Shown piece by piece: positions 2,988-25,065 of a stretch of 25,065 bases of DNA. Origin of the DNA: a virus; IMG/VR virus record IMGVR_UViG_3300006162_000053, positions 1-25,065 of that record; one strand, 5' to 3'. A model generated the notes under the pieces. It was not told the origin of the DNA. It saw only the letters and a list, made by a program, of their open reading frames with translations, and did not search any database. Position 1 is the first letter of the stretch. Each line of letters opens with the position of its first letter. A program made the position numbers and the translations under genes.

Positions 2988-2993
2988 ATGACT

Positions 2994-3833
2994 ATGAAAA
3001 GCCATCTGTGGGTAACTATTACTCTGCTATTCCTTTCGCTTTTTAGCGTGATGGTAAATGCAGAAGAGATAGAAAATACGGATACGATAATCGTAGCGGA
3101 AGTGATTCCTATTCAGCCACTACCTCAAATCCAAGAGATTCCACTAACAGTTGTTAATGAAAACTTGATGTTAGTGTATGATACTTGTAAGGACATGGGG
3201 ATGGAGCAACACGCTGAAACGCTGCAGGGGATATTAATGCAGGAAAGCAGCGGTGGCGATGGATTGTTTAAGGGCGGTAAGACACTTCCCTCGAGAAATT
3301 ACGGAATGATGCAGATTCGTGTTGAAACTGCTCGTGTAATCTTTCGCGATAATCCAGATGTTTTTGCTCGGTACTTTGGTGATCGCGACCTCGATAAAGT
3401 CAAGGATAGCGAAATCAAACACTTGTTGATTTATAACAATGCTGCAAGTGTTAGATTGGCTGCATTATTGTTCAAGCAGTATTGGGAGCTTGCTGGAGGT
3501 GATTGGATTAAAACCGTTGCTGGATACAACATGGGAATCTATGCTGCTATTGATGGTCGCAACGTTAAGATCAACCCATATGCAAGAGGTGTGTTCAAGC
3601 ATATCCAATCAAGAATCCACCCCTTCAATGAACAAGTCGGACTGTTGACTGAATCTGCCGATTGGACTAAAGTATCATTTACGCCTATTGTATCACATAA
3701 TAAAGGAGCTAAACATGGCACAAGCACCAAAGCAACGTCGCGCATCGCTACCACCAAGCCAGGGAAAGAATGTTCTGTCCAATGTGGAAGAACGCAAAAA
3801 GTTCAAGTCCTTGCTAGCAACGATCACTCATGA
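2994..3833 (+). CDS. Exported lytic transglycosylase (SLT/GH23-like)
   Basis: Predicted peptidoglycan lytic transglycosylase, 279 residues. A Sec signal peptide (residues 1-23: basic MKSHLW, hydrophobic TITLLFLSLFSVMV, likely cut after VNA) sends it to the periplasm. The SLT domain spans about 58-205: catalytic Glu in MQESSGG (E84), YGMMQIR (103-109), a helix NNAASVRLAALLFKQYW, and AGYNMG (176-181). Such an enzyme would cleave murein glycan strands, probably for lysis, and its export by Sec would remove the need for a holin to release it. The last 39 codons overlap the next gene in another frame (119 bp), giving a basic, unconserved-looking tail. Start chosen from the AAGGAG site. Confidence 0.85.
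   Translation: MKSHLWVTITLLFLSLFSVMVNAEEIENTDTIIVAEVIPIQPLPQIQEIPLTVVNENLMLVYDTCKDMGMEQHAETLQGILMQESSGGDGLFKGGKTLPSRNYGMMQIRVETARVIFRDNPDVFARYFGDRDLDKVKDSEIKHLLIYNNAASVRLAALLFKQYWELAGGDWIKTVAGYNMGIYAAIDGRNVKINPYARGVFKHIQSRIHPFNEQVGLLTESADWTKVSFTPIVSHNKGAKHGTSTKATSRIATTKPGKECSVQCGRTQKVQVLASNDHS
3703..3708 (+). promoter_or_regulatory. Ribosome binding site inside transglycosylase gene
   Basis: AAGGAG six bases before ATG 3715. It supports the internal start of the DsbA-like gene over the in-frame ATG at 3688, which has no such site. Confidence 0.7.
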
Positions 3834-4059
3834 TTTCGAGAAGATCGATCAGATCAAAGAGCAAATTAAAGAGTCGATTGGTGACGCAGCTCAAACCTAC
3901 AATCTTGATAAGAAGGTTGTCCGTCGTCTTGCTAATACAATGTACAAGCACGACTACGCTTCACGTCAACAAGAAGAACAGCATTTCCGCCTACTATACG
4001 AAACGCTAATTGAAGGTCGTTTGACTGCTGTTGAGTCTGATGATGAAAAGGCTGCGTAA
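3715..4059 (+). CDS. dsbA: DsbA-like dsDNA-binding protein (T4 late transcription type)
   Basis: A 114-residue, mostly helical, charged protein. Residues about 40-95 (KIDQIKEQIKESIGD, then YNLDKKVVRRLANTMYKHD and EEEQHFRLLYETL-type spacing) resemble, as I recall it, the T4 DsbA pattern of an N-terminal helix, a 'g.d.k....l...yhkd' segment and a final 'E.....LYd..f' helix. T4 DsbA is an 89-residue double-stranded DNA-binding protein active near late promoters; this protein is longer by a basic N-terminus (KQRRASLPPSQGK). The first 119 bp lie within the transglycosylase gene in a different frame. The small exported protein starts one base after its stop. The match is from memory, so the name is tentative. 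Confidence 0.6.
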   Translation: MAQAPKQRRASLPPSQGKNVLSNVEERKKFKSLLATITHDFEKIDQIKEQIKESIGDAAQTYNLDKKVVRRLANTMYKHDYASRQQEEQHFRLLYETLIEGRLTAVESDDEKAA

Positions 4060-4060
4060 T

Positions 4061-4258
4061 ATGAAAACTATTCTCGTCCTATCATCGTTGTTGTTTGCTG
4101 GAGCTGCATTTGCTCAATCTCCAAGTGCTCAACATTCACAGCTCAAGCAGCAGCAAATTCTTGCACAACGTGAGTGTGCAAAGATCAAGAATGAAGCTGA
4201 TCGCAAAGCTTGTGAATATCGTATTCGCACAAAGGGTGGTACAGCCACACGCAAGTAA
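4061..4258 (+). CDS. Small exported protein, unknown function
   Basis: A 65-residue protein with a clear Sec signal peptide: MKTILVLSSLLFAGAAFA, predicted cut before QSPS. There is no lipobox Cys, so it is not an obvious lipoprotein spanin. The mature part is about 47 residues, Gln-rich then basic, with two Cys (C39 and C51) that could form a disulphide in the periplasm. Function is not recognised; periplasmic location next to a transglycosylase gene suggests a role in lysis or envelope change. The ATG at 4061 follows the previous stop by one base; its stop overlaps the polymerase ATG (TAATG). Confidence 0.7.
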   Translation: MKTILVLSSLLFAGAAFAQSPSAQHSQLKQQQILAQRECAKIKNEADRKACEYRIRTKGGTATRK

Positions 4259-6939: not shown

Positions 6940-7986
6940 ATGCTCTCGATTTTAAGAGGATTGCTATTGCTGTCTGCGTTTGGCATTGCTTATGCACAAG
7001 AATCAACGCCAGTTGAAGTTCCTCAGATTAATGTAGATCAGCTAACGGATCTTGTTAACTCACTTCCGCCTCCAACCGTCATTGTTCCAGTTGTTCCTGA
7101 ACAAGTTGTGCTACCCATCAAAGCAACATCTGCTCTTGTTGTTGACATCGATAGCAATGAAGTTCTCTATTCGCAAAACGCAAATGAGATTCGACCACTT
7201 GCATCTGTGACAAAGTTGATGACAGCACTTGTCTTGATTAAGTCAGGCGTCAATCTCGACGAAAAAGTAGCAATTACTCAAGAGGATGTGTATAACACAC
7301 GATATAGTTCTATGCGTTCGCGACTTCGTCCTGGGATGCAATTTACTCGACGTGAGCTTCTTGTTCTTGCTCTAATGGCATCAGAGAATCGTGCAGCAGC
7401 CATTCTTGCACGAACGACATTCCCAGGAGGATTAGATGAATTTATTACTGCGATGAATTCTACGGCCTTTGGACTTGGAATGACGAATACACATTATGCT
7501 GATCCAACTGGTCTTCTTGCTGAAAATGTTTCAACAGCAAGCGATCTTCTTTTACTTGCAAAAGCTGTCAATGAAATTGATCTTCTTCGTGAAGACAGTA
7601 CAGAACACACATATCAATTCCAAATCGGTGCTACACGAAAACACCAGCCTGTCTATGCATTATACCATACGACAAATGTTTTGATCGCATTGAACGATAC
7701 GTGGTCGAAGGATCGTTGGAAGATTGAATTGCAGAAAACCGGATACATCCAAGCTGCTATGCATACGACCGTGTTGATTATGACAGACGGAACAAAGCGA
7801 TATGCTGTAATTATGTTGAACACACCGTCAAATGTTCAACGAGCGATCGATACAACGGTAATTCGTGTGTGGCTTGAGACAGGAAAAGTCCCCACGCGCG
7901 CTGATCTCGTTGAGTTATTACCAAAGGGGTTTGTTCCGCTAGAGCACAGTTCCACACGTAAGCACACATCAAAGTTGAAGGGTTAG
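6940..7986 (+). CDS. Exported D-alanyl-D-alanine carboxypeptidase (peptidase S11)
   Basis: Predicted penicillin-binding-protein-type D,D-carboxypeptidase of 348 residues, which would trim the terminal D-Ala of peptidoglycan stem peptides in the periplasm. Signal peptide 1-19 (LSILRGLLLLSAFGIAYA, cut before QES), then a Pro/Val-rich linker to about 60. The S11 active site is complete: SVTK (S89-K92, nucleophile and base), SEN (148-150) and KTG (266-268). Other family pieces are RPLASVTKLMTAL and HYADPTGL. The C-terminus after about 325 is short and basic, without the membrane anchor of PBP5. AGGAG six bases before ATG 6940 overlaps the polymerase stop. Its position between polymerase and clamp genes suggests early or middle expression rather than a lysis role. 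Confidence 0.93.
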   Translation: MLSILRGLLLLSAFGIAYAQESTPVEVPQINVDQLTDLVNSLPPPTVIVPVVPEQVVLPIKATSALVVDIDSNEVLYSQNANEIRPLASVTKLMTALVLIKSGVNLDEKVAITQEDVYNTRYSSMRSRLRPGMQFTRRELLVLALMASENRAAAILARTTFPGGLDEFITAMNSTAFGLGMTNTHYADPTGLLAENVSTASDLLLLAKAVNEIDLLREDSTEHTYQFQIGATRKHQPVYALYHTTNVLIALNDTWSKDRWKIELQKTGYIQAAMHTTVLIMTDGTKRYAVIMLNTPSNVQRAIDTTVIRVWLETGKVPTRADLVELLPKGFVPLEHSSTRKHTSKLKG

Positions 7987-8023: not shown

Positions 8024-8755
8024 ATGCAATTAGATAAAAAGATGCTGGCATTCCTGCAGAATATTGTAAAAACAGCTCAGCTGATCAAGCTCGATGCTGT
8101 TATTATTGAAGCAGGTGATACTGATGCTAAACTCCCAGTAAAGATTCGTGCAATGGATGAGAACAAGACCGTTGTTATGTTCCACGAGCACGCAATGGAT
8201 CTACCATATGCAATTGGATTGAATCGTTTGAACACTTTCGTTGAGCGTTATGAACTTGTCAAGACGAGCGATAACTTTGTCGTTGAGGCGGAGACAACAA
8301 CAGACAATGACGGACGTTCATTTGTTCGTGGTCTTACAATGAAAGGCAAGGGAATCAAAGTTGAGTATCGTTGCGCAAATCCAGCAACAATTACAGCTCC
8401 AAAGGTTCTCAATGACTCCGTCAAGTATAAGATCAAGATGACACCAGAAGCTGTCCTAACGATGCAGAAGGGACAGACTGCAATGGATGCGGAACTTGTT
8501 ACGTTTACATCTGATAAGGATGGTATCAGTTTTCAAATCGAAGACGTCAACAAGGACGGTTTGAATTATATATTTGGTGATCACGTCGAACCTGTCGGAT
8601 CGGGCACCAACACAGATTTCACCTATAAGTATTCACTCAAGACGATCATTCCTTTATTCAAGCAGGTATCAGACGGATACTTTCATATCACAACAAAGGG
8701 AATGTTAAAGTTGACTGTCAACGGTCTTGATTTGTATATCATACCGAGGATTTAA
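8024..8755 (+). CDS. 45: Sliding clamp (T4 gp45-like)
   Basis: DNA polymerase processivity clamp, 243 residues (T4 gp45 is 228). The pattern fits gp45: an N-terminal helix after a short strand (LDKKMLAFLQNIVKT), LNRLNTFVERYEL around 65-77, a central connector like gp45's 'DPSTVVAP' (ANPATITAPK, about 125-134), then a second domain opening KIKMTPEAVLTM and ending TVNGLDLYIIPRI. It would form a ring tethering the polymerase and, in T4-type phages, also activates late transcription. It follows the polymerase by one intervening gene. AGGAG six bases before the ATG and a candidate promoter (7975-8003) suggest it is expressed from its own leader. Sequence identity to T4 is low, so the call rests on pattern and context. 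Confidence 0.85.
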   Translation: MQLDKKMLAFLQNIVKTAQLIKLDAVIIEAGDTDAKLPVKIRAMDENKTVVMFHEHAMDLPYAIGLNRLNTFVERYELVKTSDNFVVEAETTTDNDGRSFVRGLTMKGKGIKVEYRCANPATITAPKVLNDSVKYKIKMTPEAVLTMQKGQTAMDAELVTFTSDKDGISFQIEDVNKDGLNYIFGDHVEPVGSGTNTDFTYKYSLKTIIPLFKQVSDGYFHITTKGMLKLTVNGLDLYIIPRI

Positions 8756-9571: not shown

Positions 9572-9761
9572 GCGAATGAAAGAACTTATGCTTGAGGCTG
9601 GATATGCTGCTCCGGAGCTTGCTGGTAGAGCAAAGAAACTCAATGAGTTGATCATCAAGGAATGCATACGATACTTTAACGAAGACTATCAAAGAGACTT
9701 TAACGTATTGTGGCGTGAAGATTTATCGAAAAAGATTGCAGAACATTTTGGACTAAAATGA
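9564..9761 (+). CDS. Small phage protein, paralogue of the gene at 9161
   Basis: A 65-residue helical protein starting at GTG (read MNERMKELMLEAG). It has the same plan as the 78-residue protein encoded at 9161-9397: LNELIIKECI in the middle and EHFGLK at the end. The two probably arose by duplication, with the 57-residue gene now lying between them. Function unknown. The stop overlaps the next ATG by four bases (ATGA). Confidence 0.65.
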   Translation: MNERMKELMLEAGYAAPELAGRAKKLNELIIKECIRYFNEDYQRDFNVLWREDLSKKIAEHFGLK

Positions 9762-10156
9762 AAAAGCGTTTCTACACTTCGTACTACTCAAAGAAAGGTG
9801 GCGACTCAATGGCTGTTGCTATCAGCCGAAAAGCACCTGACTATTTCCAAGGAAAGCGAGATACACGATTCGCCCCAACGTGGGACATGCTGAATCAGTA
9901 TCATGACGACAAAGACGAAGAGTTGTATACTCGAAAGTACTTGAAGATCCTTTCGCAGTACAGTGCACAAGATGTTGCAGATCAGTTTCCAGACGGAACA
10001 ATCTTCTTGTGCTACGAAGCACCGAATGATTTTTGCCATCGTCATATTTTCGCAGATTGGCTTCGAGCGTACGCTGATGTAGAGATTGATGAGTGGATTC
10101 CGGAAGAGATTCGCAAACAGCAAGCATTGATCAACGACATATTTGGAGTAAAGTAA
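9758..10156 (+). CDS. DUF488-like protein
   Basis: A 132-residue protein of the DUF488 type. The signature is TIFLCYEAPNDFCHRH (81-96): a strand ending in Cys85-x-Glu87, then Cys93-His94-Arg95, matching the family's 'LLCxE....CHR' motif. The N-terminal strand with YTSYYSKK and SRKAP and the region YTRKYLKILSQYSAQDVADQ fit the rest of the fold. DUF488 has no settled biochemical role. The end (INDIFGVK) echoes the HFG(I/L)K ends of the two small upstream proteins, perhaps by chance. It overlaps the upstream gene by 4 bp, and RNase H follows with no gap (TAAATG). Confidence 0.75.
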   Translation: MKKRFYTSYYSKKGGDSMAVAISRKAPDYFQGKRDTRFAPTWDMLNQYHDDKDEELYTRKYLKILSQYSAQDVADQFPDGTIFLCYEAPNDFCHRHIFADWLRAYADVEIDEWIPEEIRKQQALINDIFGVK

Positions 10157-15257: not shown

Positions 15258-18200
15258 TTAGTCGTCAAAAATTCCATTTACATTAAGAAGTCGAACGCCA
15301 TAAATTGACAACCACGACGTCTTCATTAGCTCTTTATATTTAGCCTTCGTTGTCAATGCATCTTGAAGGACATTAAACCAGATATTATTGACGTGTTGTA
15401 CTGGGAACTGATCGTACATCAACGACAACGATGTTGCAATATTAGCTGGTGTATTCAATGGATACGTTGCAAGGAACGATCCAAGATCAACTGGATAGAA
15501 GTTATTATTTGGATCATTCAAATATGCATTGATTGTTGCTAGCGCTAATGTACCATTAACAAATGCTTGATTAGGACCAAGTCCATATTGTGTCTGTGTT
15601 CCATTTGTTGCATCATATAATTGATATGATAGCTGCGGAACGCGTACAGAAGTATCTGCCAATGTATAGCCAACAATAGCTTCAATCATTCTATTCCACA
15701 ACTCAAGAGGTATTTGTGTGTCTTGTCCTTGGCGGAACAAAAACCACTCTTGATGTTTTGACTTCAAATTTGTGCCTTGATCATTATCACGCAATGTTAA
15801 GTCGCGCAAGAATTTCCAAACATAACGACCATCTGTCCCGTTAACAATTGTTGTTGAAGCTTGACGCAATATTGCTTGACGATAATAGACAGGAACAAAT
15901 GATGACAACACTCCATACAAGTTCGACAAGCTAAATTCAATACCATATGCAATACCAAAACCAAAACGTGCTGCTAACGTTGGATCATCTAATGGTAGTT
16001 GAACAACCATGTACGGTGTTGGAATTGATGCAAAATTTTGTGCCGTACTATATGGAGAAATAGCAGCTTCGCGTGTTGTATCAATTGTTGTTTCGTTTTG
16101 AACCCAGTAATAATATAATGTATTTAAATTGCCTGTTTGGTCATAGTACTGACGTGTACTATATTCATAATTGTATTCAAGTTGTTCTTGTGTCGTACCA
16201 TCATCATAGACGTCTGGATTAAACGATGTTTGAGCAGATGTCAAAGCTGGCAAAGAGCGTATAACGTCAACAACGTCGCGGTCAGCAAGAATTTGATTAA
16301 TTGCTGGCGTTACTTGATATGCATTATCGATTACAAACGTTTGATTGACTGGTTTACCATTAACATAAATTGAAACAGAATCACCAATGTTAAATAACGT
16401 TGGATCGACTGGTATGATTCCTAATCCAACAGGAATAACACCATTTAGTATGTGAGGAAGTGTTGCAATGTATACTCGTTGAGAAGCCAAAGTTACTTTT
16501 GTCCAGTCTGTTGGTTTAAATGCAGGAACCATTGTAAAATCAGACGATGGTATTGTTATTGCACCAGCAACAGGAGAATTGATACCAATATATCCTGTCA
16601 AAGAGCTAAACAAATTTGTATCTGTTATTACTAACGACGAATTTGGTCCAGATGTATTACTTGTTACCTGGAGATTTCCTGATACAAGTCCAACAGTACC
16701 TGCTAGTGTAGTAATTTGTTGTTGGATTTGATTGATCAAATCTGTATACGTTTGAGCATTTTGTCCAGTGATTGATATTGGATGGGTTGATTGATCAATA
16801 TTAATTGATGCCGTATATGTTGGATTAATTTCAGCAGTTCCAACAACCGGTGTCTCTATATCAACATAACCAGCCAAAGAGCTAAACATATTATTGTCCG
16901 CAACTGTAACTGTTGAATTTGTACCAAGTGCATTACTTGTTATAACAATATTTCCAGTATCAAGGGATACCGTAGCATTTGGTAAATTTGCTGATAGATA
17001 TGTAATTAGATCAGCGTATGTTGGTGCAGCTGTTCCAGCAACTGTGAGCGAGTGTGATGTACCGTTGATTGTGATTGTTGCTGAATATGTTGCAGAACCA
17101 ATGAAATTAGTTCCTGGAACAGATGTATTCAATCTAACGTATCCTGTCAATGACGAGAACAAATTATTATCAGCTATTGAGACGGAAGTGGAAGCACCAG
17201 TTGTAGTGCTTTGAATTTGAATATTACCGTTTGTTAATGAGACTACTGCTGTTCCACCAATTTGTGCTTGAAGTTGTGATATTAATACTGTATATGTTGA
17301 AGCAGATGCCTGCGTAACAGAAATTGAATGCGGCGTACCATTGACTGTAATATTTGCTGTATATGTTGGTGTATATGAATTTGTTCCTGCAACAGTCAAA
17401 CCAATGCCGCCTAATGCACTCCACAATGGATATGTACCAGTGTTGACAAAACTGACTGTAGAACTTGCACCAGTAGAATTGCTTACAACTTGCAACTGAC
17501 CATTAACAATTGATACTGTTCCTGCACTACCAATTGCAGACTGTATTGCTGAAATTAATACACCATACGTTTGTGTCGTATAAGCAACAACGCTTACAGG
17601 ATAAGGTATTCCATTAATAACAACGTTACCAGTATACGTATGGTTGATTTCATTCGTTCCATTAACAGGTGGCTCAAGACCAACGTATCCTGGCAAGCTT
17701 GGCCACAAAGATGGCCATCCAAAAATCGACAAGTTTTGCATTGAGATTGTTGAGGATGCACCAGTCTCATTGCTTGTTATACGAATGTTTCCTGTATCGT
17801 CGAGTGTTGCCGTACAAGGTGGCCATCCGTACGTTGACAATGAATTAATTCTTGCGAGAATTGATCCATATGTTGGTATTGAAGCCGAACCCCAGTATCC
17901 TCCGTATCCTCCTGTACCACCAAGTCCATTAACAAGTAAGTATCCTGTATAATTACCAAGTGGCAACGTTGTTGCTTCACTTGCAGAGTGTCCACCACCA
18001 GTATTAACAACTTGATAGCCTGCCGTTGCTGCATGATAAAGACCAGTATTTGTTCCATTAGATATACCTGTTGCAGACAAATAAGCATGTCCGTGCGTTG
18101 CAGGAACCGTTGGTGCAAATCCTGTAGTGTTGGCACCCGTTTGAGTACCACCGACGTTGACTACCTGATAGCCCGCTGTTGCTGGGAATGTTGTTGTAGA

Positions 18201-21200
18201 GTATCCTGTGCTGTTAGTACCAATTTGGTTACCACCAACATTAACTGTAACTAATCCAGCTGTTGCTGGTGCATATGCGAGTCCCGTTGAGCTCGTTAGT
18301 ATTTGAGTACCACCGACATTGACTACTTGAGAACCAGAAATTGTTGTATAATCTGTTATTGATATTGCTGGGCCACCGTATGTAGCTGAGATCGTATATG
18401 TACCATTGTTTCCTGTAGTAACAACATAGTAATTCGTTGCTGGTGTTATTGTTCCAGCGTTTGTACCATCTGTGTATGTTGGAAGCGTTGTTCCTGTAAA
18501 CAATACAAGATCGCCAACACTTAATGTATTGCCTGGTGATGTTAGTGTTGTCCCTGGTGCCCATGAAGTTGGGATTGGTGTACGAGTACGACGGAAAATT
18601 GTTTTGCGGGCCGTTCCTGTTGCAACGTTTGTAGTGAGTAGCGAACCTTGTTGACTTTGAGCTAATGCGTCCCAATTAGAAGGAAGAACACTTGTCTCAA
18701 CCCAACGATATACATTAACACTTGCCCAAGCTGCAAGGTCCCCCCACACTGCAAGGCGATCCTTGACGTTTGGATATACGTTTGCATCATAGTATGGGAC
18801 ATAGCCAATTGCAGACGTATCGAGCCATACCTTACCAGTATATTGTGTATTCCAAGGCTGCGTTGAAATATTATTAGGATTATTTGTTACTGAATATTGT
18901 GCTGGATCTGAATAGCTATACAAATCAATGTTTTGTTCAGCAACAGAGTAATTGTATCCCAAAGCTGGATGCCATAGTTCAACGTTGCTAATAATAACAT
19001 TTGCTTGCGTATCAATTAGCTTTGATGGATTCATTGACTTGCGTGCTGGATTGATTCCATAGATCATTAGCAAATTGGCAAATCCAGGAATGCTAAATGC
19101 AACAACTTCCGCGTTGATTTGTTGGAATTCTGTAACGCCAGTTCCAAAACCATATAGCGTCGTTGTGTATTGATTCAGGTCAGCACCAGCGGCTGTTATC
19201 GATGTTGGTGTATGTTGTACAACACGCATGCTGTCAGAAATAGAGCTTAGTTTTACATAAGCTAATTCTGTTGTAACATTAATTGGTGAATTGGTTGCAA
19301 CCACCCAAGCTGTACCAGACCATACGTATGTTACGTTTGTTGTTGTATCATACCAGTAGTCTACTTGACTCTCTTGTCCTGGTAATACTGGTACTGAACC
19401 GGCAAATATCTTGAGAACAGAAGTTGCTTCACCGTCCAAGAATAATGGACTTGATGTTGCTGCGGGAGGAGCTGTTAATGCAACACTAAAACCAGAGCCA
19501 GAGCCACCAATATAAACATTAGATGTTGTTAGAACATCTGTTGTAGCATATCCCTTGCCACTATCCGTAATGATTACATCTGACACTTTGCCGCCAGTAA
19601 CAACAATAGTTGCTGCTGCACCCGTTCCCGAACCACCATTCAATGGTACACCGTTGTATGTTCCGTTGGTATATCCACTACCACCAACGATTGATCCAAT
19701 CGTGATTGTGTATGTTGGAATAGATGTGTATGGCGTGTATGTTAGATCCTCTTCTTGTTCAGGAAGATTCTTCCAACGATTTGGAACACCAAAATTAACA
19801 ATTTGGAATCCATCAGCAATTCCTTGTACAGTATATGGATCTGTTGATGGTTCAATTGGTGACATGAACTGTAGAAGAACATCTTCAACGGCTCCGTCAG
19901 TACTAAACAATACAATTTCTGGATATACTTTTGGACGCACGTCGCCAAAGTCAGCAACTTTCCAAGCCCAATACTGATCAACTTGAGCACCCAAGAAACG
20001 CTTAGAGTTAATATAAGCTGTGATGGAATTTACAGATCCTTTGTAGCGAATCATACCACGATAGAACAAGAATTGTGTTTGATTATTAACATTTAGCAAA
20101 TCGAGATACGACGCATTGGGCTGATAATCAATCAATGCACGAGCTGTATTAGACATTGGTGTCGTACGAGTTTGTGTGTATGTATCGTACAAGTGTTGCA
20201 GATCATACGCCTGTCCTTCGATATTACGTGTGAAAGTTCCTGCATCCAAGAAATAACCACCAAGGTCAGGACGAAGTTGGTAGTTACGGTTTTCATAGAA
20301 ATCAAGATTAAATTTTTGTGCATTCAAACCAAGGAAAGGATCATAGATCAAGCTTCCCGTGACAGTGTAGTCATTAAACACCATTGCATGTTCATAATCT
20401 TGAATGAATAAATGAGCGCCACCAATGTGTTGGTATGGAGCAACCGATGGCGTATTTGGAAGAACGGGATTGACCATTTGGCTACGTAATGCAAGACGTG
20501 TTAGTTTATCTTGTCGAAGAACAATAATTTCTGATGCATTCATTGGTGCACCTGTTGCATCAAATACCGTTTGTTGTGTTCTGATGTCCGGATATGGTCC
20601 TTGGAATACGTTAGCAACAACACCTTGTGGTGTTGACATCCACATATTATTCTTTAGAGGATTAATTTCTATTGTTGGATAAACATATTGACTATTGTAC
20701 AAACTAATTGTCATGTTACCTGAACCAAGCGACGTTAGAGGAATCGGCTGACCGCCTGACGACGATGGATATAAAGACAGCGTGAATTGTGTTGTATTTG
20801 TTGCACTTACGTTGATGTAGTAGGAAACACCAGGTGCTAACGGTGATGGGAGAACGCCGGATGTTGCAAGAGTAACGCGTGATCCTGTCTTCCATGCTGG
20901 TGCTGTTGTGAATTGTAATAGTCCTGTTGATTGATCAACGACTGTAAAGGGAAACTTATCATTAATGACGAGTTGTGTGTTGCGTATATTGTAAGATTGA
21001 TTAATAAAATTTTCAATCTCATACTGCCAATTAATAGAACGACCTGTCAGTGGATTGATGTCTGTTGTTGTTGTACTATTAAATACAACGTTTTGAGTTT
21101 GTTCATACCCGTTGTAACCATCAATAAAATTGATCAAGTTTTGCATTCCGTTGAGTTGGAATGGTGTCGTTACTGTTTCAACACGAGACGTGTCAAGTTC

Positions 21201-24200
21201 ATAGTGATACCACGTATCCGTTGATGCTCCTGCTCCACCAAATGCTTGGAATGATGATGTGAATTGACCAACCTTGAATGTTCCTGTGCCGGGCGTCGAA
21301 TAGCTTGTGATTGGATTATTTGCTAATGCATCGTTCAACGTATCAGCAAGCATGAATTGATTAGATTGGAACGTTGTGTTCAAATAAATGATATATGGTG
21401 TTTCTAATACCAAAGGCGCTGGTAACTGTTGTGTTGCATTAAGAACAACAACAGTTCCCGTTGACCACGTCGATGGAACTGATGCGCCAAGTAAAGTGAT
21501 AAAACCATCATTTGTTAACGTTGATGGAATTGGTTGTGCAACGTTAATTTGTGTTGTATCAGACGATGGACTATAGTAAGAGGATGTAACCAAATACTTA
21601 CCGTCGTTAATAATCGAATTTGTTATTGATACAGACGAACCAGCAACGAAGACACCAGTAACATCTGTTGCAACAGTAAAATTATTTGCAGCATTATTAG
21701 AATATGTATTTGCATACTTGTACATCGTACAAATACCTGTTGCTTGATCAACCATGAATTGAAATTGAAGAGCAGGATAATACGATATTGTTCGTGAAAT
21801 TGGTGCAAGCGAATTGACTTCAAATTTCCACTTCGCTTCATTGTTGTATTGCATAAAGCCTGGCGGAATGCTTAACAACGAAACATTAAATCCTTCCATC
21901 CACACGTCAGCAATAACTCCATTGTTAATCAAATAAATGTTATAGTCTTGTGCAACAATGTTAAAGAATTGATTAAAAATTTCAAACGTGCTAATATCAA
22001 GAATGCCACCAAATAAGTATGTTAATTGTGGTGTCCAGTTGACCCACAGCTGACGAAATTGATCGTTTGTATCCAGGCTAGTATAACGATTGTAGTTAGA
22101 ATACCACTGATTCAAACCTTGAGCTGTGAATACAGTATTTGTTCCAATCATATCACCGTGGAATACCGTATTTGAGTGAGAGAATACTGTTTGAGAAATT
22201 GCTTCTACGTCAAGGCCATTGATTGTAGCAAAGTTTAATCCAAATGCATAATGAAAAAACTTTGTTGGTTCTATACGGAATGCAACATTCATTTGATCAA
22301 AAGCGTATGAAATGTTTGTTCTCCATTGCCACTCTACAAATGAACCACCACCGTACACGAAGTCTGCATTTGCAGAAATAATTTCGCTGAATGTCGTATA
22401 AAGAGAACGAACAGTATAGAATGGTAGGAATGAAACTGGTGTTATATATGGTGGTAGCAAATCATCAGGATTGTATGTACTGCCTGATACGATTGGTCCA
22501 TCAGTAACATTAACAGGTACGTACGTCCACGTCAATGCTTCTCCAGCAGCTCCGGTACTTACAGCACCACTTGGTAGTAATTGACCAACTGGAACAATAC
22601 CATTCAACACATTGTACCACATTACTGAATTCCACCTACGACTAGGAACGGCGGGTGCATATGTCCCCTTCCACCACACAGGAAGATTAGCATATCCTTG
22701 TAATTTCCACGGTTCTAGATGAGGATATGGTGTATTAAACCAATTGGTATACAGCTGTCTCCAGTCAGAAGCATTTTGTCCTGCTGGGCGAGATGATGTT
22801 ACTGTATATGGTGGTGTTGCAACACCACTCTTCAAATAGTTCCACGTGAATGGATTTGTTGGTGTGTAGTATGTGTTTTGGAATGGCGTTGAAATGTTAT
22901 TATCAATAATGTACTGTGAAAACTGATCATGAAAATATTGTTTTGACAATGATGCATTAGTAGGCGTTGCAACAGTAGTTGCATAGTCAAAGCGTGGTGC
23001 AAAGTATGGTGGAATTACATTCCAAAGCTGCTGTTCGATCTCAAGCAAAGTATAAGCTAATACTTCTTGGAAGCGAGTCTCAATCCATCCGCCACCGATA
23101 TATCCATCACCAACGTGTGTAGGATCAAGTGGAGTCCATCCCGTACCCGTCAAGACCATCAACGTATTTGTTGTTGTATTGAACCACAATGCACCGTTGA
23201 CGATTGCGGATCCTGTTGGTGATGTTGTCGAAATTGATGCAATTCCTAAACGATAGAATACAGGAAGCGTTCCACCTGTTTGATACCAAAATAAAACTGT
23301 CCGTGCAGAACCAAACGTAGACGTTAAGCTAGCGATTGTTGTAGGTGGCGTTGTAGTGGTAATCTTACCATATGTCTGTCCTGCAACACGTGTATCAACA
23401 GTGTTGCAAATTGCGCGGGCAAATGTATCTTCTTGTGTTGCTGAGTATGTAATTTGCATACGGTGTCCATCATGACATACAACTTCACATATGTCTGATC
23501 CCGTATTTGGTTCTGTTAAATTTCTATCGATTACAACATAAGGCTCAACTGCTGGAGCAAGACCAAAGATCGCTGGCGTTGCAATCCAGTTTGGAACACC
23601 AAGTGATTGATAGTAAGCTGTACTATCGCCATATATTTCACCAAAGAAAACATTATCTTGAAGAGCCGTTACAATAATATTGTTAAATGCTGCTGCTGGA
23701 TTAACGATGGAAAGCGTTGATCCGCCAACAAATGTTGATACAACGTGGCTAAGATATGTATCAACGGCAAATAGAGTTTGATTTTGATATTGCTCTTGAG
23801 CAAATGAAATCAAACCCGGCGGTGTTATATTGTTAACGTTAAATGCTGAAATCAAAGAATCGTAACTATCGTTGTGTTCATGAATTGTTCCACCGAGGCC
23901 ATAGTTGTACTGGTTTTGTAATAAGGAATATACACCACCACCTAGTAATCCAGGGACTGGTGGCTGGGCTGAAATGATTGTTTGCAAATGTGTTGATAGA
24001 CTTGAGAGATCAATCTGAACTTTGTTTTGGTGATTGGGATTATAATACATCTGACTTGGAATTTCCCAGTCACCAATCCACGTGCCTGTCGGTGAAAGAC
24101 CACGACTATCAACAATTTGAGAATTGTACCAATCTGTTTGCGCTTGAGCTTCAATCTGTGCTGTTGTCCAAGAAGGATTTGTCGTTTGCAAACTAATTTC

Positions 24201-25065
24201 ATCACTCGCAATATAGTTTGCTTGCTGTGTTGCATATTGTGGTTCTGTTCGCTGATCCCAATCGACTAACTGTGGTACATAAGGAGCAAAATTACTTGCT
24301 GGTTTCCATATTGTTTGCAATGATGGATCACCCGTTGCAATTATAACATTGGTGATTCGAACCCAACCAGTTGCTTGATACTGGAACAGTTGTTGGCGAT
24401 TTGTATCATACCACAACGTACCAATCAAATTATCATCGACAACGTTGCTCAAATATGCTGGTAGCTGCAATGGTGTACCAATAATAGGACGTGTTACAAC
24501 AATCCCCTTTGATGTTTCATTTGTGTTAATAATTTCTACCGTTTCCCACGCTTGTCCATCCCACAAATGTAATGTTTGTGAAGTTGGCTCAAACCAATAT
24601 GTTCCTGTAGCAACTTGTGAAAGATTACGATAGCCGAGCATTGGTCCGTTATCAACGTTGATCAAGTATTGCTCAAAAGTAAAATTTGTTCCGGTGCTAT
24701 CAACTGCAACACGCATTCCAATATATGGATTAACCGTAGCTGATGAACTTTCAGCATATGTAAAAATGGAGGAAGCAGCTGCAATTTCTCCTGTAACAAC
24801 ATTATACGTGTTGAATAAAGGATACTGATTTACGGAAATCTTATTTTGTTCTTGACGTTGATGTACTGTCAAGGAAATGTATTGTGGTTGTGTTCCTGCT
24901 GCTACTGCAAGTGCAAAGTCTGCATCATTTGCAATTGTACGTACGGGAATGCAATCCATTCCCATATCACCAAGAGCAGCTGAACCAATTTCAACGTGAA
25001 CTGTAACACCAGCAGGAAGAGGCGTGTTAAAAACAATACCAACAACGTATTGAAACGTTGGAAGC
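15258..25065 (-). CDS. Giant modular virion structural protein, N-terminus beyond window
   Basis: At least 3268 codons. An ATG exists at 24965, but the frame stays open with protein-like sequence (LPTFQYVVGIVFNTP, LPAGVTVHVEIGSAALGD) to the right edge, so the true start is outside. It is a secreted-adhesin-like mosaic with no enzyme motif seen. Read from the N-side: two 'WYDTN..L..W.GT.W'-type motifs (24355-24610), a third near 23135-23205; an aromatic-rich central part; modules of the type 'tG..V.l...g.LP.pl....YYi' near 21270-21490, 20710-20910 and 18355-18560; a Gly-rich GSGYTNGTYNGVPL/GGSGSGFSV module (19480-19710); a fourth WYDTT motif (19300-19365); VVNVGG repeats; five IN-like repeats; and a compact C-terminus (LELWNRMIEAIVGYTL, YGLGPNQAFV). 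Likely a tail fibre or baseplate-linked protein. Confidence 0.85.
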   Translation of the reverse strand, partial: LPTFQYVVGIVFNTPLPAGVTVHVEIGSAALGDMGMDCIPVRTIANDADFALAVAAGTQPQYISLTVHQRQEQNKISVNQYPLFNTYNVVTGEIAAASSIFTYAESSSATVNPYIGMRVAVDSTGTNFTFEQYLINVDNGPMLGYRNLSQVATGTYWFEPTSQTLHLWDGQAWETVEIINTNETSKGIVVTRPIIGTPLQLPAYLSNVVDDNLIGTLWYDTNRQQLFQYQATGWVRITNVIIATGDPSLQTIWKPASNFAPYVPQLVDWDQRTEPQYATQQANYIASDEISLQTTNPSWTTAQIEAQAQTDWYNSQIVDSRGLSPTGTWIGDWEIPSQMYYNPNHQNKVQIDLSSLSTHLQTIISAQPPVPGLLGGGVYSLLQNQYNYGLGGTIHEHNDSYDSLISAFNVNNITPPGLISFAQEQYQNQTLFAVDTYLSHVVSTFVGGSTLSIVNPAAAFNNIIVTALQDNVFFGEIYGDSTAYYQSLGVPNWIATPAIFGLAPAVEPYVVIDRNLTEPNTGSDICEVVCHDGHRMQITYSATQEDTFARAICNTVDTRVAGQTYGKITTTTPPTTIASLTSTFGSARTVLFWYQTGGTLPVFYRLGIASISTTSPTGSAIVNGALWFNTTTNTLMVLTGTGWTPLDPTHVGDGYIGGGWIETRFQEVLAYTLLEIEQQLWNVIPPYFAPRFDYATTVATPTNASLSKQYFHDQFSQYIIDNNISTPFQNTYYTPTNPFTWNYLKSGVATPPYTVTSSRPAGQNASDWRQLYTNWFNTPYPHLEPWKLQGYANLPVWWKGTYAPAVPSRRWNSVMWYNVLNGIVPVGQLLPSGAVSTGAAGEALTWTYVPVNVTDGPIVSGSTYNPDDLLPPYITPVSFLPFYTVRSLYTTFSEIISANADFVYGGGSFVEWQWRTNISYAFDQMNVAFRIEPTKFFHYAFGLNFATINGLDVEAISQTVFSHSNTVFHGDMIGTNTVFTAQGLNQWYSNYNRYTSLDTNDQFRQLWVNWTPQLTYLFGGILDISTFEIFNQFFNIVAQDYNIYLINNGVIADVWMEGFNVSLLSIPPGFMQYNNEAKWKFEVNSLAPISRTISYYPALQFQFMVDQATGICTMYKYANTYSNNAANNFTVATDVTGVFVAGSSVSITNSIINDGKYLVTSSYYSPSSDTTQINVAQPIPSTLTNDGFITLLGASVPSTWSTGTVVVLNATQQLPAPLVLETPYIIYLNTTFQSNQFMLADTLNDALANNPITSYSTPGTGTFKVGQFTSSFQAFGGAGASTDTWYHYELDTSRVETVTTPFQLNGMQNLINFIDGYNGYEQTQNVVFNSTTTTDINPLTGRSINWQYEIENFINQSYNIRNTQLVINDKFPFTVVDQSTGLLQFTTAPAWKTGSRVTLATSGVLPSPLAPGVSYYINVSATNTTQFTLSLYPSSSGGQPIPLTSLGSGNMTISLYNSQYVYPTIEINPLKNNMWMSTPQGVVANVFQGPYPDIRTQQTVFDATGAPMNASEIIVLRQDKLTRLALRSQMVNPVLPNTPSVAPYQHIGGAHLFIQDYEHAMVFNDYTVTGSLIYDPFLGLNAQKFNLDFYENRNYQLRPDLGGYFLDAGTFTRNIEGQAYDLQHLYDTYTQTRTTPMSNTARALIDYQPNASYLDLLNVNNQTQFLFYRGMIRYKGSVNSITAYINSKRFLGAQVDQYWAWKVADFGDVRPKVYPEIVLFSTDGAVEDVLLQFMSPIEPSTDPYTVQGIADGFQIVNFGVPNRWKNLPEQEEDLTYTPYTSIPTYTITIGSIVGGSGYTNGTYNGVPLNGGSGTGAAATIVVTGGKVSDVIITDSGKGYATTDVLTTSNVYIGGSGSGFSVALTAPPAATSSPLFLDGEATSVLKIFAGSVPVLPGQESQVDYWYDTTTNVTYVWSGTAWVVATNSPINVTTELAYVKLSSISDSMRVVQHTPTSITAAGADLNQYTTTLYGFGTGVTEFQQINAEVVAFSIPGFANLLMIYGINPARKSMNPSKLIDTQANVIISNVELWHPALGYNYSVAEQNIDLYSYSDPAQYSVTNNPNNISTQPWNTQYTGKVWLDTSAIGYVPYYDANVYPNVKDRLAVWGDLAAWASVNVYRWVETSVLPSNWDALAQSQQGSLLTTNVATGTARKTIFRRTRTPIPTSWAPGTTLTSPGNTLSVGDLVLFTGTTLPTYTDGTNAGTITPATNYYVVTTGNNGTYTISATYGGPAISITDYTTISGSQVVNVGGTQILTSSTGLAYAPATAGLVTVNVGGNQIGTNSTGYSTTTFPATAGYQVVNVGGTQTGANTTGFAPTVPATHGHAYLSATGISNGTNTGLYHAATAGYQVVNTGGGHSASEATTLPLGNYTGYLLVNGLGGTGGYGGYWGSASIPTYGSILARINSLSTYGWPPCTATLDDTGNIRITSNETGASSTISMQNLSIFGWPSLWPSLPGYVGLEPPVNGTNEINHTYTGNVVINGIPYPVSVVAYTTQTYGVLISAIQSAIGSAGTVSIVNGQLQVVSNSTGASSTVSFVNTGTYPLWSALGGIGLTVAGTNSYTPTYTANITVNGTPHSISVTQASASTYTVLISQLQAQIGGTAVVSLTNGNIQIQSTTTGASTSVSIADNNLFSSLTGYVRLNTSVPGTNFIGSATYSATITINGTSHSLTVAGTAAPTYADLITYLSANLPNATVSLDTGNIVITSNALGTNSTVTVADNNMFSSLAGYVDIETPVVGTAEINPTYTASINIDQSTHPISITGQNAQTYTDLINQIQQQITTLAGTVGLVSGNLQVTSNTSGPNSSLVITDTNLFSSLTGYIGINSPVAGAITIPSSDFTMVPAFKPTDWTKVTLASQRVYIATLPHILNGVIPVGLGIIPVDPTLFNIGDSVSIYVNGKPVNQTFVIDNAYQVTPAINQILADRDVVDVIRSLPALTSAQTSFNPDVYDDGTTQEQLEYNYEYSTRQYYDQTGNLNTLYYYWVQNETTIDTTREAAISPYSTAQNFASIPTPYMVVQLPLDDPTLAARFGFGIAYGIEFSLSNLYGVLSSFVPVYYRQAILRQASTTIVNGTDGRYVWKFLRDLTLRDNDQGTNLKSKHQEWFLFRQGQDTQIPLELWNRMIEAIVGYTLADTSVRVPQLSYQLYDATNGTQTQYGLGPNQAFVNGTLALATINAYLNDPNNNFYPVDLGSFLATYPLNTPANIATSLSLMYDQFPVQHVNNIWFNVLQDALTTKAKYKELMKTSWLSIYGVRLLNVNGIFDD
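16542..17951 (-). repeat. Five tandem ~92-residue IN-motif-like repeats in the giant protein
   Basis: Protein-level repeats, N to C: 17951-17637 (105 residues), 17636-17364 (91), 17363-17088 (92), 17087-16818 (90) and 16817-16542 (92). Each has Y(T/S)xxxxxNG, a TY..LI..(I/L)...(I/L) helix, a 'G.(I/L).(I/V).S...G..S.(V/L).(I/V)' strand pair and an LFSSL.GY(V/I) end (the end is divergent in copies 1 and 2). The pattern resembles the flagellin/hook IN motif (Flagellin_IN), which forms small beta domains on flagellar proteins. Copies 3-5 are the most alike. Confidence 0.75.
17990..18335 (-). repeat. Short VVNVGG tandem repeats in the giant protein
   Basis: About four imperfect units of 23-29 residues: VVNVGGTQ...STG.A.ATAG, VNVGGNQIGTNSTGY...PATAGYQ, VVNVGGTQTGANTTGFAP, a divergent unit ending ATAGYQ, then VVNTGGG. 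The DNA repeats too (ACCACCGACRTTGACTAC near 18149 and 18310). They lie directly N-terminal to the larger repeats and look like a flexible or beta-helical stalk. Confidence 0.65.

Follow-up and report, generated by a model that had tools for sequence, protein, structure and literature searches.

The closest described relatives of the protein studied here are the PBP7/PbpG D,D-endopeptidases of Gram-negative bacteria such as E. coli, Yersinia (6muq), Enterobacter (6azi) and Acinetobacter. E. coli PBP7 acts only as an endopeptidase, cutting cross-links, and the A. baumannii enzyme both cuts cross-links and trims pentapeptides (PMC13059705, PMC9239154). Overproduction of PBP7 lyses E. coli, for which Ser67, Ser124 and Lys231, lying in motifs equivalent to those described below, are required (PMC11586513).

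The presence of an S11 gene in a phage is not new. The literature has genes named 'D-alanyl-D-alanine carboxypeptidase' in one Limnohabitans phage, in one phage from a lake and in a cyanophage virion; vanY-type enzymes go by the same name. Phage-borne examples by annotation include DacC of uncultured Caudovirales, ORF110 of Limnohabitans phage DC31 and ORF7 of Dishui Lake phage DSL-LC01. The papers on them give neither a subfamily nor a functional test, and none describes a gene between polymerase and clamp. BFVD entries under this name have the same fold as the protein described here, with only 21-29% identity. Erythrobacter phage R6L gp77 and Microcystis phage Mwe-JY26 also contain an S11 domain, but within larger proteins whose genes adjoin tail-structural or lysozyme genes, whereas ours is a stand-alone protein, predicted to be exported and encoded beside replication genes. 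So far, phage S11 genes have received only passing mention as 'auxiliary' D,D-carboxypeptidases, in most cases with neither subfamily nor context given. Our search of the open literature turned up no phage PBP7, and an overview of 224 jumbo-phage genomes mentions neither carboxypeptidase nor penicillin. A PBP7-like identity and a lineage-wide position beside a jumbo-phage polymerase appear to be undescribed in that literature.

We analyzed a 25,065-nucleotide stretch of viral DNA (IMG/VR record IMGVR_UViG_3300006162_000053, positions 1 to 25,065), referred to here as the window. The original prediction, made from the letters of this DNA, was that it encodes a complete S11 D,D-carboxypeptidase with a signal peptide, located between a phage polymerase and its clamp. 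The features relevant to this claim are as follows.

2988..3833, + strand: putative exported lytic-transglycosylase-like protein, SLT fold (PF01464 24.2 bits, cut-off 21.3; hydrophobic N-terminus)
4061..4258, + strand: small protein of 65 aa (MKTILVLSSLLFAGAAFAQ...), predicted by hydropathy to be exported; ends on the polymerase start codon
4258..6930, + strand: family-B DNA polymerase (PHROG 262, E 3e-176), 9 nt 5' of the S11 start
6940..7986, + strand: PBP7-like S11 D,D-peptidase gene, 348 aa (ORF, Pfam, NCBIfam and PDB matches, AlphaFold model)
6940..6996, + strand: putative Sec-type signal sequence MLSILRGLLLLSAFGIAYA, with cleavage predicted in front of QES (hydropathy and inspection; helix 2-18 in the AlphaFold model)
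8024..8755, + strand: divergent sliding clamp, a polymerase processivity factor (PHROG 223, E 7.6e-7; synteny with XacN1 and RAS14)

The gene at 6940-7986 is confirmed as an intact S11 gene of a phage. A GGAG ribosome-binding site precedes the start codon (ATG 6940), and the frame ends with the stop codon at 7984-7986. The product's Pfam match to PF00768 (Peptidase_S11) scored 147.8 bits (cut-off 27.6; E 4.8e-43), so it is not due to chance. All three expected motifs were found in order, namely SVTK at residues 89-92 (Ser89/Lys92), SEN at 148-150, and KTG at 266-268. Across 12 phage relatives and a 29-sequence set that included bacterial PbpG, the catalytic residues do not vary. The predicted signal peptide was likewise recognizable, by hydropathy and inspection only, as a hydrophobic core and A-x-A site within MLSILRGLLLLSAFGIAYA followed by QE; judged on this N-terminus, the protein is probably exported via Sec. 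Its architecture comprises the signal sequence (1-19), a low-confidence linker (~20-55), the catalytic domain (~57-316), and a short basic tail. The location between polymerase and clamp was also borne out, with the clamp-like gene 37 nt past the S11 stop and its identity resting on remote similarity and jumbo-phage synteny only.

The label 'D,D-carboxypeptidase' fared less well. The best NCBIfam family was PRK11669 (D-alanyl-D-alanine endopeptidase, PbpG) with 216.8 bits, compared to 54.2, 50.9, and 42.2 bits for the carboxypeptidase models DacA, DacC, and DacD. None of the latter reached its cut-off (694, 765, and 610, respectively). As the PRK11669 score also fell below its equivalog cut-off of 294, we named the protein 'PBP7-like' and did not file it as PbpG. 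All 12 aligned phage S11 proteins matched PRK11669, with a best E-value of 1.5e-82, which none of the carboxypeptidase models came near. The top PDB sequence matches were the murein D,D-endopeptidases 6muq (164.6 bits) and 6azi (160.5 bits), followed by a next match of 65.8 bits.

Structural comparison agreed with these assignments. An AlphaFold model built from a 29-sequence input (mean pLDDT 89, pTM 0.80) had 6azi as its best fold match (Foldseek E 1.6e-27; Z 36.1, 1.9 Å over 248 residues, 38% identity), followed by 6muq (Z 34.5), K15 transpeptidase (Z 33.5), and PBP5/6 (Z ~31-32). Residues 57-321 aligned to 6azi, leaving just a short helix and the tail beyond them. Overall, the protein shares with PBP7/PbpG the S11 domain, the three motifs, a predicted signal sequence, the lack of a PBP5-type C-terminal domain, a WLETGKV-like C-terminal helix, and 38-39% identity over 246-248 structurally aligned residues. 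It shares family, catalytic fold and motifs with PBP5, PBP6 and the DacA, DacC and DacD proteins, but the C-terminal domain and membrane anchor of the PBP5/PBP6 type are absent from both its sequence and its model. In the S11 tree, DacA and DacD fell outside (100/100), while the phage clade and bacterial PbpG were united (100/97). By sequence, modeled fold, and tree, the protein is nearest to the PBP7/PbpG D,D-endopeptidases and not to PBP5/DacA, and it is better labelled as PBP7-like and probably an endopeptidase. The original prediction had also set this enzyme apart from phage enzymes that cut cross-links, a contrast that finds no support, since its nearest relatives do so.

A true D,D-carboxypeptidase would convert pentapeptides to tetrapeptides, reducing cross-linking and changing host shape. 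Family S11 is named for carboxypeptidases and A. baumannii PBP7 has both activities, an analogy by which a second, carboxypeptidase activity is possible for the phage protein. As its principal function, we consider this improbable given the low DacA/DacC/DacD scores, the missing PBP5/6 domain, and a fold and tree that side with the endopeptidases.

The protein also differs from PBP7/PbpG in several respects. It is phage-encoded, adjoins a polymerase gene, has an N-terminal linker of ~40 aa and a short basic tail, and belongs to sequences which branch beside the bacterial ones and not among them. Just past KTG, the Gly274 and Cys276 that are near-invariant elsewhere are replaced by Met274 and Thr276; the L149 protein, for one, retains both. 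Together with the score below the PbpG cut-off, these substitutions could mean that its activity is altered or reduced. Taken to the extreme, the window copy would be no working peptidase at all, serving as a beta-lactam sink or simply drifting. The two changed residues and a long branch in the S11 tree are what this reading draws on. We regard it as the least probable of the alternatives, as the catalytic motifs and reading frame are intact, pN is below pS, and the copy has diverged as its polymerase predicts (mean residual -0.02).

A survey of S11 genes in related phages, as the original prediction had proposed, was performed by scanning viral contigs with polymerase and S11 alignments, the phage lineage being defined by the family-B polymerase. 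Alignments were needed, as scans with single proteins returned no viral relatives and a two-row S11 alignment was likewise unsuccessful. S11 was found directly 3' of the polymerase in 12 other distinct contigs, some recovered from two assemblies (L032, L036, L038, L039, L041, L052, L080, L081, L128, L137, L149, and L153). All complete S11 proteins from these carriers retained the three motifs, and their N-termini were hydrophobic; the L080 sequence is cut by the end of the locus. Whole-record scans showed one S11 gene per carrier. A basic C-terminal tail was present in most (net +2 to +9 over the last 20 residues), but as a phage hallmark it is only suggestive, given its absence from L153, the truncation of L080, and a bacterial mean of +2.1.

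The 12 usable phage S11 sequences, including that of the window, formed one clade (87/89) beside proteobacterial PbpG, which argues with moderate strength for a single origin. The PbpG of contig L176 grouped with Burkholderiales although the contig has been assigned to Candidatus Fonsibacter lacus, which is probably a binning error. In the polymerase tree, 11 of 12 carriers fell in a single 19-row clade (support 87), and the 17-row group holding the window had a support of 99. S11 presence required six state changes on this tree, which fits an ancestral gain followed by several losses, or some transfer. Many close relatives lack the gene, marking it as accessory. Whole-record scans did not detect S11 in XacN1, RAS14, or records of 350, 364, 292, and 292 kb. 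A 379 kb record of a related jumbo phage (G006; L063/L259) encodes a PBP7-like S11 protein ~150 kb from its polymerase and close to bacterial PbpG, apparently a separate acquisition.

The original prediction had named a recent, decaying host acquisition as one finding that would overturn it. We rejected this reading on the strength of relatives with the gene at the same position, intact motifs, GC (0.42-0.43) and codon use that match the neighboring genes, signs of selection, and polymerase-like divergence. For every pair tested, pN was well below pS (L128/L149, 0.25 vs 0.74; window pairs, 0.40-0.44 vs 0.72-0.79), with synonymous sites saturated. S11 identity tracked polymerase identity (r 0.70, from non-independent pairs), and the window copy was no outlier. 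These patterns indicate that S11 is under purifying selection and ancient, a maintained viral tool and not a recent pick-up. The tree by itself does not reject a separate bacterial source for the window copy (AU test p = 0.199). Our main reason for discounting that source is the insertion site, which the window copy shares with its relatives and which is a stronger argument than the tree for grouping it with them.

In relatives without S11, the gap between polymerase and clamp is nearly empty or holds DUF488, a homing-endonuclease-like gene (L143), or a protein with an N-terminal membrane/export segment (L116). An accessory gene in such a variable slot, which elsewhere holds an exported or membrane protein among other cargo, could serve to exclude rival phages, with an altered wall blocking DNA entry or the tail lysozymes of superinfecting phages. 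Cleavage of cross-links would normally ease entry and not block it, and we consider exclusion very unlikely. DUF488 itself lies directly 3' of the polymerase or of S11 in many relatives (e.g. L032, 11591-11986; L143, 12239-12643); in the window it lies further downstream (9758-10156), before an RNase H-like gene.

The polymerase also places the phage. Its nearest named relatives are those of Xanthomonas phage XacN1 (44% identity) and Stenotrophomonas phages RAS14 and CM1 (43%). XacN1 and RAS14 share the gene order of the window (2OG-oxygenase-like, polymerase, clamp, 8758-like, and RNase H-like exonuclease), but have no S11 gene, their polymerase and clamp matches being just 36-38 nt apart. 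The window is a 25 kb fragment and its relatives reach 379 kb; judging by them, its source is very probably a jumbo phage with a Gram-negative host.

On the 5' side of the polymerase, the SLT-like gene encodes a product with a predicted signal sequence along with Glu-Ser, YGMMQI, and AGYNMG motifs. With the SLT-like and 65-aa protein genes on one side and S11 on the other, the polymerase is flanked on both sides by genes for predicted exported proteins. The 65-aa protein had no Pfam match and has two cysteines in its mature part. Homologues of the SLT-like protein were found at 44 loci of the lineage (some being one contig counted twice), nearly all with hydrophobic N-termini and in carriers and non-carriers alike. 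In 9 of 13 S11 carriers, an SLT-like gene with a hydrophobic N-terminus lies upstream. The SLT-like protein is a possible functional partner of S11; counting against this pairing, its gene occurs both with and without S11. The 3' end of the SLT-like gene overlaps the next gene (3715-4059; PHROG 639/12534, transcription-regulator-like) by ~120 nt in another frame.

The placement of S11 among replication genes is real, and suggests something about timing only. Within the window, we found no T4-type late promoter (TATAAATA), and sigma-70-like and terminator-like sites were no commoner than in shuffled sequences; timing therefore cannot be read from promoters. Because overproduced PBP7 lyses E. 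coli, how much of the enzyme the phage makes, and when, must be important. That lysis also lends weight to the view of S11 as an auxiliary endolysin, an exported enzyme that cuts cross-links and thins the sacculus before holin and endolysin act. Consistent with this, no PF00959 phage-lysozyme match was present in the records of 11 relatives, and by the four families tried some carriers have no endolysin besides the SLT-like gene. Against it, S11 lies with replication genes and not in a lysis or structural region, and relatives without S11 live without it. Moreover, a separate gene of the GH108 endolysin type is present far from S11 in two carriers (237 and 244 kb), so that S11 is not their only wall hydrolase, which argues against it as their lysis enzyme. 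Weakening of the wall before lysis is thus unlikely to be its main purpose, if less so than the other alternatives.

We consider wall remodeling during infection the likeliest role, at about even odds, through periplasmic cross-link cleavage by the PBP7-like protein and perhaps in partnership with the SLT-like protein. What we infer for S11, namely export, penicillin binding, enzymatic activity, a preference for 4-3 cross-links, expression with the replication genes, and this role, would connect as follows. S11 would probably be produced alongside the DNA polymerase and clamp and then be exported by Sec to the periplasm. There, Ser89 would attack in an acyl-serine mechanism assisted by Lys92 and the SEN and KTG motifs. 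The enzyme would open 4-3 D-Ala-mDAP cross-links and possibly trim pentapeptides too. Together with the exported SLT-like protein, it would most likely loosen and remodel the host wall in the replication phase. The result could be wall turnover or cell growth sustained through a long infection, leaving a weaker sacculus for lysis.

More tentatively, some jumbo phages may run a replication-phase wall-remodeling module of their own, in which a PBP7-like endopeptidase and a lytic transglycosylase, both exported, are encoded around the polymerase and the endopeptidase acts as a factor for host growth and not for lysis. We hold this broader proposal to be doubtful; were it true, the infected cell would keep enlarging, or its wall would stay pliable, through a long infection. 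One group of phage S11 genes now has a testable identity as PBP7-like endopeptidases, a conserved jumbo-phage position, and an age. This turns a vague annotation into an answerable question, whether jumbo phages exert control over their host's wall in the course of infection. The interaction between beta-lactams and phages is also touched, as this enzyme should itself be a penicillin target.

Several further observations were made. The S11 query hit 512 viral-contig stretches, and some of these resemble host DNA flanking a provirus. Matches to 'Acinetobacter phage MD-2021a' (H1, H14, and H22) were not used as phage evidence; they carry pbpG, dacA, or dacD in otherwise ordinary bacterial surroundings and resemble contigs of bacteria submitted as phage. 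Further viral S11 lineages exist outside the jumbo clade (L069-L114), an example being L069, where the S11 gene has a head maturation protease on one side and a structural-like gene on the other. No RNA families or tRNAs were found in the window. Its minus strand contains a single 3235-aa ORF (15258-24965) with repeated segments and no near DNA match among phages, probably encoding a large structural or fibre protein. Upstream of the polymerase, a retropepsin-like aspartic peptidase domain (RloA3/RimB-like, PF05618; 1481-2275) is conserved across the lineage. Finally, the polymerase match was split by insertions of ~1-2 kb in L016, L017, L018, L026, L035, L037, L052, L081, and L153, often near residue 610-625, which suggests introns or inteins.
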